Below are positions 39,695 through 45,128 of a DNA stretch of 64,000 bases, piece after piece. Made by a program: the position numbers and the translations under genes. The stretch spans positions 1 through 64,000 of the forward strand of contig PGZO01000021.1 in assembly GCA_002841375.1 (NCBI GenBank). The letters are read 5' to 3'. The notes under the pieces are model-generated. The model ran no database searches. It had not been told where the DNA came from and was given only the letters and a program-made list of their open reading frames with translations. The DNA is from Firmicutes bacterium HGW-Firmicutes-7 (GTDB taxonomy: Bacteria > Bacillota > Clostridia > Lachnospirales > Vallitaleaceae). Position 1 is the stretch's first letter. Each line of letters starts with the position of its first letter.

Positions 39695-40339
39695 TCACGA
39701 AGCTGTTTCCAAATACTTAATAATCATTTCCTTATACACAGCAAGGGCAGTTAATACATTTATTTGACAACTTGACTTTAATACCTTCTCTCGTAATATA
39801 AGTTTTTGAGCTAATGCAATAAAAAGATCGAGGCAAGTTCCTCCAGCCTCTTGTGCGCATATATCTTTTCTGATGGTACCATCTAACTTACCTTTTTCAA
39901 TTATACCGGTTAATATAGGTAAGTTATTGGTAACCATCTTGCTATATTCATCCATAGGATATTGATCTTTCCAACTCATAACAAAGGAATCCAATTGATC
40001 CATAAATACGAGCATTGATGGGTTCTCACTGAATTTTAATGAAAGGTAGTTCATAATTTGTAATGTTTGTTCTATGCCCGTACCAAATAAAAGGGAATGG
40101 TCATAAGACAGCTCGTTTTCCCAATAATCTTTAGCGACTTCCATCACTAATTCCATTTTTGTTGTATAATATCTATAAACTGAAGCAACACCAACTTCGG
40201 CTCGTAGAGCAATGTCCTGCATCGTAGTTTTTTCAATAGACTTCTCGGCAAATATAACCTTTGCAGCGTTAATGACATCACTTTTCCTGTTATGAATTGC
40301 TTCTAATCGTTCCTTTTCTCGCTTGTCCTTAGCTCCCAT
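39695..40339 (-). CDS. TetR family transcription regulator
   Basis: A 214-residue TetR-type repressor. The N-terminal helix-turn-helix is clear (TTMQDIALRAEVGVASVYRY, about 38-57). The C-terminal ligand domain is not assignable. It lies 34 bases downstream of the GH2 gene on the same strand, so it may regulate that transcription unit. The start follows AAGGTGG. Confidence 0.92.
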   Translation of the reverse strand: MGAKDKREKERLEAIHNRKSDVINAAKVIFAEKSIEKTTMQDIALRAEVGVASVYRYYTTKMELVMEVAKDYWENELSYDHSLLFGTGIEQTLQIMNYLSLKFSENPSMLVFMDQLDSFVMSWKDQYPMDEYSKMVTNNLPILTGIIEKGKLDGTIRKDICAQEAGGTCLDLFIALAQKLILREKVLKSSCQINVLTALAVYKEMIIKYLETAS

Positions 40340-40373: not shown

Positions 40374-43300
40374 TCAAAATGCACGACAAATTTTGTACCC
40401 ATATTTATATTCAATATTCTTTTTAAGCTGATACTTTTTTTGTAACGTTTCATCAAGACCAACACCTTTTTGCTTATAGTCAATGTTCAAGGTAATACTA
40501 TTTCTCATTCTAATAGATTGAATATGATGTGCTTCGTCCAAATCATTTAAAGTATAAGGCCACGCGCTCATATTGAGCAATGTTTTTCCCGCATCTTCAA
40601 AAAACAAACCTTCTCCCTCTCCAGTAGTTGCTGAGAACCATCTTATATCTGTTCTATTAGAATTTTCTTGAGGTCTTAAATAATTATGAATATAATCATT
40701 TATATGGCAAGAATATACGCCAACCTTTGCGCCCTCTTGTCTATCAACATAGTTTTCATGTATCCCCTTGCCAAACCAAGAAATTTGGTTAAACTCATTG
40801 CTAATTTCCATTGTACTACCAAATTTAATCAAATTCTTCTTAGGCGTTAGTTGATGGCTAACAACTATTTCACCATTCCCATCGATTGTATATTCAGTAA
40901 TTAGACTGTTTTTTATATGCTTCACCTTTCTCATAATTTTGATTACCACTTCGGACCTGTTATTCTCAATTATTACCTTTTGAACTTTATAGCTTTCAGA
41001 GACTTTTTTCCAGTTAATTTTTCCGAATGAAATAAAACTTTTTCTATCTATTTCTTCCTTTAGATCATTATCAGTAGCTGCTCTATAAAAGTTCAGTTTT
41101 AAAGGAGATATAAGGTATTCTTTGCCCTCAAAAATAAGAGATGTTACATCCCCGGTAAGCTTGGAAACACGGCAAGAAAATCCTTCGCCCAATACTTCAA
41201 CCTTTATTTTACGATCATGAACTTCTAACATGTTTAGAGATACTTTTTTCTCTTTTACTCGAACAATATTTGGCACTTTAAGTTGTTCCCACGCAATAAC
41301 TTCGTCTACGACTCCCCAACTACTGTTTTCTTTTAAGCAACAGTTAATGTTAATATGGTATTCAGCTCCTTCTAGCTTTTTATAATCCGTTATAGGAAGC
41401 GTTATCACTTTAGATTCACCAGGCTCTATATCAATTTCCTCAAGCGCCCCTTGTTTTAAAAGTTCTCCATCTTCAAGGAGTTCCCAATTAATTTTATATT
41501 GGTTCATATTAATAAAAGTATTCTTATTGTATATTTCAATCATATTAACGATTAAGTCAATTTCTTTAACGCCAAAGCCTTGATAAACTTTTTTCACTTC
41601 ATAAGCTGTAGGGTGCAAAGATCGATCTGCAGCAACGATACCGCTTATACAAAAATATCCACTTGTTTTTTCTTCGCCAAAATCTCTTCCATACAGCCAA
41701 ACATTTTCACCATCTATGTTTTTCCTAATGGCTTGGTCTGCAAAATCATATATAAACCCACCACACCAATTGTCGTATTTTTCAAACTTATCCATATACA
41801 TCTTCAAATTTCCAAAGCCATTTTCTCTTCCAGCTCCATAGGCACAAAGTAGCGCAGGCTTTTGATAATAATCTTGATCATTTCCTATTTCATCTATATA
41901 CTCAAGTGATGTATTTTGTTTAGAAATAAAATCACTAATAAGAAGTTCTAAGTCACCTTCAAAATGAAATGGCCTTGAAATGTCTAGTTCAATTCCAGCC
42001 TTTTTCATTTCAAAATAGTTCTCACCATGTCCTACTTCATTTCCTAATGACCAAATAATAACACTTGGGTGATTTCTATCTCTAACAACCATTCGCGTCA
42101 TCCTGTCAACCATCGACTTACACCAATCCGGATTGTTGGATATAGAAATCGTCTCATCATGCTCATAAGTCTCAATATCGACTTCGTCCATAACATATAA
42201 TCCATATTGGTCACATAGATCATAAAAATAAGCATCATTAGGATAATGATTCGTTCTAATGGCATTTATATTGCAACTTTTCAGCAACTTAATATCTTGT
42301 TCATATCTATCTTCAGAAACAGCGAAGCCGGTATCTGGATCAAAATCATGTCTATTAATGCCCTTTAAAATAATCGTTTTCCCATTAATCAATAGCTTTG
42401 CATCATGTATTTCTACACTTCTAAATCCAAATGTGAACTTTTTAGCTGTAATCACTTGTCCAAAATGGTTTTTTAGAACAATGGCACCAACATAAAGATC
42501 TGGTGTTTCTGCTGTCCACTTTTTAGGATTAACAATATCAGCTTCCATTGTTACTTTGCTAAACCCTTCTGCTGGTGCGACCAATCTACATTCAGACATG
42601 TAACCATCTTCTATTTCCGTAAAAGACTCTGCCAAATACGCAGACATTTGTATACCTTGCTCTTGGGCTGAATAATTAGCTACTTCAACATCTATTTTTA
42701 TAATTGCATCTTCGTAGGAATCGTCCAACCTACATGACACAAAATAATCTCTTATTGTTATTTTAGGTTCAGAATATACATACACATCTCTATATATACC
42801 ACTCAGAAACCAAGTATTATGACCCTCTAAGTATGTTCCATCTGAATATCTATATACCTCAACCGAAACGGTGTTTTCTTCACCATATTTTAAATATTTA
42901 GTAATATCAAACTCAGCAGGTGTCATGGAGCCTTGACTATAACCAACTCTCTCCCCATTTATCCAAATATAAAAAGCAGACTTTACTGCACCAAAGTGTA
43001 TAAAAACCTCTCTATTTACCCATGTACTTGAAATAGTAAAGTGTTTTTTATAGGAACCCACTGCATTTTCATTGTGATCTATAATAGGGACATGCTCCCC
43101 CTTCATTGAAGGCGAGAAATCTGAGGTTAGAAAATACGGCTGATTTTCTTCATCATAGCCTTGTAACTGCCATAAACCTGGCACTTGTATCGTTTGCCAG
43201 CTACTTATATCATAGTTTAGATCATAAAAATCGATAGGTCTAACACTAGGATTTTTAGATAGCATAAAATGCCAGATTCCATTCAAATCCAATCGCCACG

Positions 43301-43427
43301 AAGAATTGTCACCACCTTTCAGCTGTTCTAAAGTACTATAATGAAAGCTTTCAACATGTGGCTTTTCCTTGCAAATTTCAATAACTTTAGGATTTTCCCA
43401 ATCAGCTGCAATACAATTCACCTTCAT
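40374..43427 (-). CDS. GH2 beta-galactosidase-like protein lacking the usual nucleophile
   Basis: A 1017-residue LacZ-type protein with all domains: sugar-binding jelly roll (about 45-225), Ig-like, TIM barrel (about 345-630, GINRHDFDPDTG), second Ig-like and the C-terminal beta-sandwich. The acid/base Glu464 is in IIWSLGNEVGHG. The nucleophile segment, normally CEYAHAMGN, reads CAYGAGREN, with Ala529 in place of Glu. The metal-ligand EThH is ETY. It is either catalytically dead, of altered mechanism, or a binding protein. The reading frame is intact, so it is not an obvious pseudogene. The start after GGAGG is ATG 43427 or possibly GTG 43421. Confidence 0.85.
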   Translation of the reverse strand: MKVNCIAADWENPKVIEICKEKPHVESFHYSTLEQLKGGDNSSWRLDLNGIWHFMLSKNPSVRPIDFYDLNYDISSWQTIQVPGLWQLQGYDEENQPYFLTSDFSPSMKGEHVPIIDHNENAVGSYKKHFTISSTWVNREVFIHFGAVKSAFYIWINGERVGYSQGSMTPAEFDITKYLKYGEENTVSVEVYRYSDGTYLEGHNTWFLSGIYRDVYVYSEPKITIRDYFVSCRLDDSYEDAIIKIDVEVANYSAQEQGIQMSAYLAESFTEIEDGYMSECRLVAPAEGFSKVTMEADIVNPKKWTAETPDLYVGAIVLKNHFGQVITAKKFTFGFRSVEIHDAKLLINGKTIILKGINRHDFDPDTGFAVSEDRYEQDIKLLKSCNINAIRTNHYPNDAYFYDLCDQYGLYVMDEVDIETYEHDETISISNNPDWCKSMVDRMTRMVVRDRNHPSVIIWSLGNEVGHGENYFEMKKAGIELDISRPFHFEGDLELLISDFISKQNTSLEYIDEIGNDQDYYQKPALLCAYGAGRENGFGNLKMYMDKFEKYDNWCGGFIYDFADQAIRKNIDGENVWLYGRDFGEEKTSGYFCISGIVAADRSLHPTAYEVKKVYQGFGVKEIDLIVNMIEIYNKNTFINMNQYKINWELLEDGELLKQGALEEIDIEPGESKVITLPITDYKKLEGAEYHININCCLKENSSWGVVDEVIAWEQLKVPNIVRVKEKKVSLNMLEVHDRKIKVEVLGEGFSCRVSKLTGDVTSLIFEGKEYLISPLKLNFYRAATDNDLKEEIDRKSFISFGKINWKKVSESYKVQKVIIENNRSEVVIKIMRKVKHIKNSLITEYTIDGNGEIVVSHQLTPKKNLIKFGSTMEISNEFNQISWFGKGIHENYVDRQEGAKVGVYSCHINDYIHNYLRPQENSNRTDIRWFSATTGEGEGLFFEDAGKTLLNMSAWPYTLNDLDEAHHIQSIRMRNSITLNIDYKQKGVGLDETLQKKYQLKKNIEYKYGYKICRAF

Positions 43428-43511
43428 TCCCCTCCTTTGATAGGTTTACTATCACATTGATAAGTATTATATCATTATCTTCCATAAATGTCAATAAATG
43501 CTAGTTTAAGA

Positions 43512-43607: not shown

Positions 43608-44474
43608 TTATAATGGTAACAATTCATCTATTTTTAGTTTTTGATTTACAAAAAAACTCAAGATCTCCCCTTCCATTTTAAATTTCAATTGAATAATTCC
43701 CATAAATTTTTCATTCGCTACACAATGCACATCCTGTATATTTTTGAAAGGAATATAAGTATGAATATAACTATAGTCTGTATCCAATCTTCTTTTCAGC
43801 GGATGTTGTTTGCTAATAACAATGAGCTCTTTTCCATTCTCCAAAAACATGGTATTTTGCAACATATATTTATTATAAATATCCCAAATATATTCATACC
43901 ACTTCTTCTTCATCAGTTCTAAATAGAGAATTGGTTGAAAACCAAGAATATTAATTTGTTCTCTTTGCTCCATTTCGTTTAGTAAATTTTGAAATAAATG
44001 ATTTGTGATCTTTGCTACATACGCTCGATGTGGTTGAAAAAAATCTTCAGAATCTTTAAGATATTCAATTCTAAGAAAATCAACAACCTGATCAATTATT
44101 CTATGCGAAACTGTGTTGTATTGGATGATTTCTTTGCCTGATTTAGCAAAAAATATCAATTCACCTTTTAATAAATTATGGCAATTCTGAATTGAATAAA
44201 TATCTGCATAGGTAATTCTTTTCTCTGATACTCTCTTCTCTTTTAATTCATAGACTACAACTTCATTATGGCCAAAGCTAACTAAGCTATTATATAGAAC
44301 GTCTCCTGGATTAGCATTTCTTCTTTCAATCTTAACCGGTATTTTTAATACCATTTTTACTTTCGAAGCATCATACATATAGTATTCCCTAAACAAAGGG
44401 GGAACATCTTCTTGACAGTGCACTTCAAGCAGCCATGGTCCAAAGCGATCATATTCTTTTTGTAAACTATTCAT
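43608..44474 (-). CDS. Conserved-looking protein of unknown function
   Basis: A 288-residue cytoplasmic protein with no signal or membrane segment. I do not recognise a family. The sequence alternates beta-rich stretches (about 35-125 and 205-285) with a helical middle (about 130-205), and the two beta parts end in similar patterns, suggesting two PH-like modules around a helical linker. The start follows AAGGAG. A MarR-type regulator lies 40 bases upstream on the same strand and may control it. Confidence 0.7.
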   Translation of the reverse strand: MNSLQKEYDRFGPWLLEVHCQEDVPPLFREYYMYDASKVKMVLKIPVKIERRNANPGDVLYNSLVSFGHNEVVVYELKEKRVSEKRITYADIYSIQNCHNLLKGELIFFAKSGKEIIQYNTVSHRIIDQVVDFLRIEYLKDSEDFFQPHRAYVAKITNHLFQNLLNEMEQREQINILGFQPILYLELMKKKWYEYIWDIYNKYMLQNTMFLENGKELIVISKQHPLKRRLDTDYSYIHTYIPFKNIQDVHCVANEKFMGIIQLKFKMEGEILSFFVNQKLKIDELLPL

Positions 44475-44514
44475 AAACTCATCTCCTTTTTATATTTCAA
44501 CTTTATTTGTTTAA

Positions 44515-44967
44515 CTATAAATCTGTAATTCTATTACTGATTTTTTCTACAAGCTTAATAAACGTTTCTCTATCAAGATCATTCTCCAACGCTTCGTAAA
44601 CCAAACTAAAAATGTTGTTTTTATATGCTTTACGAATAGCCATAACTTGATTTCCATAATCTGTTAATTCTAATCTAAAAGTCCTTTTATCTGTTGAGCA
44701 AATTTTTCTACTCAATAACTTTTTACGTTCCATTCGATCAATAATACTCGTCAACGTACTACTCGGAATATCCATCAATTGTACAGCTTCTCTCGTAGAA
44801 AGATCTGGTATTTGCTCCATCAAATTTAATACACCTAATTCCGCTACTGTAAGCTTTTCAAGTGCTTTTGGTTTATTTGCTTTTTCAATTTTGGATTTAT
44901 ACAACACCATTAGTTGGTGTATAGAATTATCTAATTTAATAATCCATTGATCTCTATGTTTTTTCAA
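44515..44967 (-). CDS. MarR family transcription regulator
   Basis: A ~150-residue winged-helix repressor. The DNA-binding part reads STREAVQLMDIPSSTLTSII and the wing has KICSTDKRTFRLELT. AGAGGGG lies six bases before the TTG at 44967, so I prefer that start to the ATG at 44985, which lacks a site. The ligand is unknown. It may regulate the unknown gene downstream. Confidence 0.88.
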   Translation of the reverse strand: MKKHRDQWIIKLDNSIHQLMVLYKSKIEKANKPKALEKLTVAELGVLNLMEQIPDLSTREAVQLMDIPSSTLTSIIDRMERKKLLSRKICSTDKRTFRLELTDYGNQVMAIRKAYKNNIFSLVYEALENDLDRETFIKLVEKISNRITDL

Positions 44968-45128
44968 AATTGTCCCCTCTCGCATATCAAGATTTGTTAC
45001 GATAATCGTAATTTACGTATTACGTAATAATAACATAGCACATTTTATATTTTTTTACAATACTAAACAACCAAGAAAGTTGTAATCTTTTTACGGCTTC
45101 GTAGGAAAGCAGAACTTTCCTATGGGAT

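Follow-up and report, generated by a model that had tools for sequence, protein, structure and literature searches.

A LacZ-type protein clade that has lost its catalytic nucleophile is probably kept as a pseudoenzyme in an operon with a TetR-family regulator

Can a LacZ-type gene be kept by selection after its product has lost the catalytic nucleophile, and if so, for what kind of work? This question is raised by lacZ*, a gene in a 64,000-nucleotide stretch of a Clostridia genome that was analysed as a whole (the window). Few glycosidases have been studied as thoroughly as LacZ, and a conserved clade without the nucleophile offers a natural test of what selection can act on in the rest of this large fold. 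The product of lacZ*, a GH2 protein of 1017 residues, has five Pfam domains above cut-off: PF02837 (Glyco_hydro_2_N), PF00703 (Glyco_hydro_2), PF02836 (Glyco_hydro_2_C), PF16353 (LacZ_4) and PF02929 (Bgal_small_N). This is the full-length architecture of LacZ-type enzymes (E. coli LacZ; Thermotoga maritima 6sd0/6s6z), and the best solved relative is the T. maritima beta-galactosidase 6sd0 (E = 5.8e-203, residues 9–995 aligned). An AF2 model from a six-row alignment, of medium quality (mean pLDDT 64.1, pTM 0.56, residues 531–540 below 50), is good for the overall fold only and cannot place Glu535; LacZ-type structures were among its best 50 matches listed. LacZ* scores below the equivalog cut-off of its nearest NCBIfam model (NF052611, 886.8 against 999 bits), and annotating the gene as 'beta-galactosidase' from its domain matches would mislead.

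We aligned LacZ* with E. coli LacZ (the sequence from MG1655). Its nucleophile block reads CAYGAGRENGFG, and Ala529 aligns with the nucleophile Glu537; the first-pass annotation was correct in reading alanine here from a GCC codon, two changes away from GAG. It had also asked whether the alanine is conserved as a clade. A survey of 22 genomes of the family yielded three Ala-type proteins: LacZ* from the source genome of the window (G000), an orthologue from the same genus (G002; 82% identical, block CAYGPGREN) and one from a third genome of the same family (G004; about 50% identical, block CAFAPSSEN, N terminus missing at the contig end). Position 537 is alanine in all three, and each of the 26 canonical homologues in the alignment has glutamate there. 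The alanine codons differ (GCC, GCT and GCA) and come from three separate assemblies. In a tree of 29 rows the three proteins formed one group with 100/100 support and a single Glu-to-Ala change, nearest to the Glu-type proteins of G017, genus g5 and G042, and their genes share one syntenic place. Three codons in three assemblies within one supported, syntenic clade rule out both a sequencing slip and a lone loss. As reconstructed from these sequences, the nucleophile is shown to have been lost once, before the genus of G000 and G002 split from that of G004.

When the nucleophile codon was left open in a scan, a glutamate codon occupied it in 22 of 22 matches from 392 genomes of the order and in 12 of 12 from 398 genomes of the phylum; the pattern demands His540, Met542 and flanking letters, such that proteins lacking these, like the three, cannot appear, several of the 22 order matches recur in the 26-row set, and the two genome sets have six genomes in common. 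A scan of genome contigs for the alanine block, with a pattern that fixes the alanine and some flanking letters, misses other substitutions and may omit the source and very near genomes, returned six stretches. One (L034) was the G004 protein, a second (L032) gave only a 49-residue match (E = 0.031) with frames that do not read as GH2-like, and the other four gave no match at E <= 1. An order-wide protein search, incomplete in that two candidates were scored per genome and the G004 protein was not returned, added two loci (L028 and L029), both Glu-type. The counts of canonical homologues are exclusive of 1877 plasmid records with a relative and of four viral-contig relatives, the latter with glutamate at the nucleophile position.

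The first-pass annotation had described the rest of the protein as well kept. This is so for the fold and not for the active site, where seven further changes separate LacZ* from E. coli LacZ: M502 to Q504, Y503 to N505, H540 to A532, M542 to R534, D201 to N204, W568 to Y560 and N604 to S595. D201, M502, Y503, H540, W568 and N604, which we take to be the galactose pocket residues of LacZ, are changed in LacZ* at six of six positions. Across all three clade members, Met502 is replaced by Gln, Tyr503 by Asn or Phe, His540 by Ala or Pro, Met542 by Arg or Ser, and Asn604 by Ser or His (this last position is Asp in some canonical rows too); Asp201 to Asn and Trp568 to Tyr are found in G000 and G002. 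Gln504 and Ala529 are common to the three members and occur in none of the 26 canonical proteins. The acid/base glutamate, said earlier to be kept as Glu464, is kept in G000 and G002 and is Asp in G004, while the equivalents of H357, H391, E416 and N460 (H360, H394, E419 and N463 in LacZ*) are retained in every member. The ETY motif had likewise been noted in place of ETH: Tyr421 does occupy the His418 position in LacZ*, but the other two members keep His, which rules it out as a clade feature. About 24 residues that immediately precede the nucleophile strand, around 517, are absent from the G000 and G002 proteins; they are present in G004 and in the proteins of G017, g5 and G042.

We then compared how the pocket and the rest of the barrel have diverged. 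The 26 canonical rows are invariant at 91 columns, 18 of which have changed in at least one clade member, among them 201, 461, 502, 503, 537, 540, 542, 568 and 601. Eleven of the 18 belong to a list of 23 pocket positions of LacZ, drawn up after the changed columns were known. By this list, pocket identity is 17/23 (74%) for G000/G002, 9/20 (45%) for G000/G004 and 12/20 (60%) for G002/G004, beside 86%, 57% and 58%, respectively, for the rest of the barrel, whereas 16 canonical pairs at 54–62% barrel identity have 87–100% pocket identity. A list fixed beforehand gave 18/21 (86%), 9/20 (45%) and 11/20 (55%) for the same pairs against 73–100% in 17 canonical pairs, and a 15-position core gave 12/15 (80%), 7/15 (47%) and 9/15 (60%) against 100% in 15 of 15. 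All three lists agree in outcome for both pairs with G004; in G000/G002 pocket conservation equals that of the barrel or falls slightly below it, according to the list used, and most of the case for relaxation comes from the comparisons with G004. Fisher's tests against one matched canonical pair (G042/G005, 22/23) gave p = 0.0003 and 0.007, values that are indications, as the pairs have members in common. By these alignments the galactose pocket is dismantled, its positions appearing no longer slower-evolving than the rest of the barrel. A changed and variable pocket argues against an enzyme with a new mechanism and against a pocket conserved as a new sugar site, for either of which the reverse would be expected.

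Relaxation of the pocket did not extend to the gene. For lacZ*, G000 and G002 gave a dN/dS of 0.061 (dN 0.102, dS 1.68), an approximate ratio with dS near saturation; it lies within the range of thirteen neighbouring genes (0.034–0.215), and three canonical LacZ pairs gave 0.044, 0.059 and 0.152. The selection on the fold that had been proposed is borne out by this value of about 0.06, which marks strong purifying selection. Using a fixed tree, we measured the tree length of domain 5 relative to that of the barrel: it is 0.95 in the clade, and four canonical groups have 1.65, 1.98, 2.29 and 3.05. The domain-4 to barrel ratio is 1.75 against 2.81–6.62; a fifth set, which is not one clade in the fixed tree, lies outside this comparison. 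Measured in these relative tree lengths, constraint is shown to have moved outside the pocket, with the barrel relatively relaxed and the beta-sandwich domains, domain 5 above all, relatively held.

Table 1 Features of the lacZ*-tetR locus, in window coordinates
Feature	Position	Strand	Basis
TetR-family regulator, downstream of lacZ* and codirectional, 34 bases between	39695..40339	-	Pair kept in G000, G002 and G004
lacZ* (LacZ-type GH2 protein without nucleophile Glu)	40374..43427	-	ORF, profile and structure-database matches
Codon 529, GCC (Ala) at E. coli LacZ Glu537 position	41841..41843	-	Alignment, codon reading
Codon 464, Glu at acid/base Glu461 position (Asp in G004 orthologue)	42036..42038	-	Alignment
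Likely ribosome-binding site, purine-rich AAGGAGGGGA, directly before lacZ* start	43428..43437	-	Sequence
Core of candidate TetR operator, TGATAG-N5-CTATCA; no other exact copy found in G000	43438..43454		Conserved palindrome
Second, overlapping palindrome of candidate operator, TATCA-ATG-TGATA	43450..43462		Sequence
Candidate -10 box TATAAT	43466..43471	-	Register shared by 7 aligned promoters, sequence exact in 6/7
Candidate -35 box TTGACA, 17 bases before -10	43489..43494	-	Exact in 5/7 aligned promoters

The gene after lacZ* encodes a TetR-family regulator (DNA-binding domain PF00440, E = 3.7e-11). G000, G002 and G004 have kept the pair together with the order of the genes downstream: convergent genes for a response regulator, an HPt-like protein and a histidine kinase, then a PHP-domain gene and hydrogenase-subunit-like genes (the histidine kinase and the PHP domain were checked; the other names come from reading). 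A candidate operator, TGATAG-N5-CTATCA, follows the -10 box in one register at the lacZ* promoters of G000 and G002, at those of the TetR genes of G005, G008, G017 and G006, and at that of a Melibiase-type gene of G017. G000 and G002 each contain one exact copy. About 0.5 exact copies per genome are expected by chance from the base composition of the window, and the force of the argument thus lies in the register at seven promoters and not in the copy count. Forward counts of one-mismatch copies against a control were 6/8 in G000, 10/8 in G002, 13/12 in G004, 9/8 in G005, 6/10 in G008, 18/7 in G016 and 22/13 in G017; since these are near background in G000 and G002, we do not claim a wider regulon. 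G004 (C341) and G016 (C5) also have exact copies, but within reading frames, and we took these to be chance matches. Conservation of the lacZ* promoter covers two genomes, G000 and G002, the upstream region of G004 being off its contig. The regulated role that was first suggested from the TetR neighbour alone is made likely by the conserved candidate operator and promoter.

Homologues of this TetR were found at 1e-10 in 8 of the 22 family genomes, G000 included. Their neighbour in G005, G008, G017 and G006 is the gene of an MFS_2-type sugar symporter. In G016 the homologue lies between a canonical lacZ and an MFS_2-kind symporter, with a Melibiase-type relative beyond; no operator copy with up to one mismatch was found in L044, the stretch with this canonical lacZ-tetR operon. 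Elsewhere the palindrome marks TetR-symporter operons and the Melibiase-type gene in G017 (loci L056, L057, L058, L074 and L078), making it a candidate mark of a small TetR regulon in the family. A symporter homologue was not found at 1e-20 in G000 (99% complete) or G002 (98%), nor was a homologue of the G017 Melibiase-type gene found at 1e-10 in G000, G002 or G005; as G005 lacks it, the Melibiase-type gene cannot be a fixed member of the regulon. In G004 a symporter and a Melibiase-type homologue both occur, in an operon of their own next to the tail of a further LacZ-type protein. This tail, at L077 10012-10809 (G004:C22), is a C-terminal part cut at the contig end and precedes TetR, symporter and Melibiase-type genes, so that G004 may possess an active LacZ as well as the inactive one. 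The Glu-type lacZ genes of G005, G006, G008 and G017, unlike lacZ*, are not beside a relative of this TetR, and in G007 a TetR homologue was not found at 1e-10.

We consider it probable that LacZ* is a GH2 pseudoenzyme that no longer works as a retaining galactosidase and is maintained for a non-catalytic role, encoded in a lacZ*-tetR operon, a reading supported by the clade-wide alanine, the 100/100 tree support and purifying selection. Retaining hydrolysis in GH2 is a double displacement with a glycosyl-enzyme intermediate. With the nucleophile gone there should be no such intermediate, and from this established mechanism LacZ* should not hydrolyse beta-galactosides. The sequences show that the ancestral LacZ-type beta-galactosidase, from a lineage that has Glu at 543, lost galactose-binding residues of subsite -1 together with its nucleophile. 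As constraint lies outside the pocket, the present work of LacZ* is likely to be non-catalytic, with a protein or ligand bound by surfaces elsewhere. The two genes would be made as an operon that TetR probably represses and that a sugar-like inducer probably releases, and its candidate operator recurs at TetR genes that adjoin sugar symporters in related genomes. Since no exact operator copy was found in G000 other than that of lacZ*-tetR, the pair looks like a self-contained module. The weakest step is that LacZ* probably works with its TetR or answers the same signal; the pair could be kept just because the operon is old. More speculatively, and in our judgement rather improbably, the dead LacZ may now be a regulatory partner of its own repressor: with the transporter of the old regulon gone from the genus, the sealed pair would consist of TetR and a LacZ* that modulates it (or is its sole other target) through the beta-sandwich domains.

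A ligand-binding pseudoenzyme, in which the old pocket holds or senses a sugar, for example to feed or titrate the TetR inducer, is possible, though unlikely. The title of entry 1jyn names a crystal of E. coli E537Q with lactose, and loss of the nucleophile alone can thus leave binding; moreover, TetR relatives that share the operator have sugar symporters as neighbours, and a Melibiase-type gene follows one of the operator copies. But the galactose-holding residues are lost, and those now in the pocket differ between members, varying in the clade at about the background rate, which weakens the first-pass proposal of sugar binding in the old pocket.

We think it distinctly improbable that LacZ* is a working enzyme with a changed mechanism, acting on another sugar through Glu464 with water, phosphate or an outside nucleophile, or through Glu535. 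Weak or altered chemistry would fit the acid/base glutamate of two of the three members and the retained His, Glu and Asn residues, Gln504 and Ala529 are uniform in the clade and absent from the 26 canonical proteins, and the available part of a survey describes GH2 members in which the acid/base is replaced (PMC12243196). Against this, the acid/base is Asp and the loop Arg is Ser in G004, and the clade pocket, unlike that of matched canonical pairs, varies about as much as the barrel. Glu535 itself, put forward earlier as a substitute nucleophile, is rejected as such: glutamate at the same place, the Gly543 position, coexists with intact Glu537 in six canonical homologues (G005, G006, G007, G008 (L011) and G017 of the family and G042 of the order), and is most simply older than the nucleophile loss. 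These Glu-type proteins are the nearest tree rows; the family members have the DNWCGGFI block and Glu543 in common with LacZ*, and all six proteins differ from it in keeping Glu537, His540, Met502 and Tyr503.

Still less credible is that the gene is decaying, or marks a local loss, and persists without function. The lost catalytic residues and the roughly 24 residues missing in G000 and G002 would suit it, but frames are open in three genomes (in G004 as far as the contig goes), dN/dS stays low, promoter and operator are conserved in G000 and G002, and synteny is kept between genera. We can practically dismiss an error of sequencing or assembly, in favour of which nothing was found and against which stand the separate assemblies, the three codons and several further pocket changes.

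Plant-eating beetles have glycosidase pseudoenzymes, reportedly GH28 polygalacturonases. In these, catalytic function has been lost and the gene kept; as far as the accessible text of that study goes, they differ from LacZ* in belonging to another family, in being eukaryotic and tied to gene-family expansion, and in having no operon with a regulator (PMC6549527). A 2025 survey that divides GH2 into subfamilies gives, in its available part, the nucleophile as an invariant Glu and the acid/base as able to vary; its GH2_16, GH2_19 and GH2_21 depart like LacZ* from the usual catalytic pair, there at the acid/base and here at the nucleophile (PMC12243196). Searches of the open-licence literature, for Vallitalea galactosidases too, listed no report of a GH2 protein with a lost nucleophile. 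Glycosidase pseudoenzymes are thus already known as a kind, and relative to the available parts of these sources a GH2 clade without the nucleophile Glu is new.

Two further observations concern G000. The only other GH2 protein found there with LacZ* as query (745 residues, 31% identity; L079 4952-7189, G000:C42) is encoded beside genes that read as a sugar ABC transporter, an AraC-type regulator and a mutarotase; it may be the real glycosidase and serve hydrolysis. Between lacZ* and a PilZ-like gene (named from reading), window positions 43608-44985 hold genes for a MarR-type regulator and a 288-residue protein with no Pfam match. The two genes are absent at this place in G002, which has a homologue of the 288-residue protein on another contig; at 1e-5, homologues occur in 10 of the 22 family genomes, G000 included.
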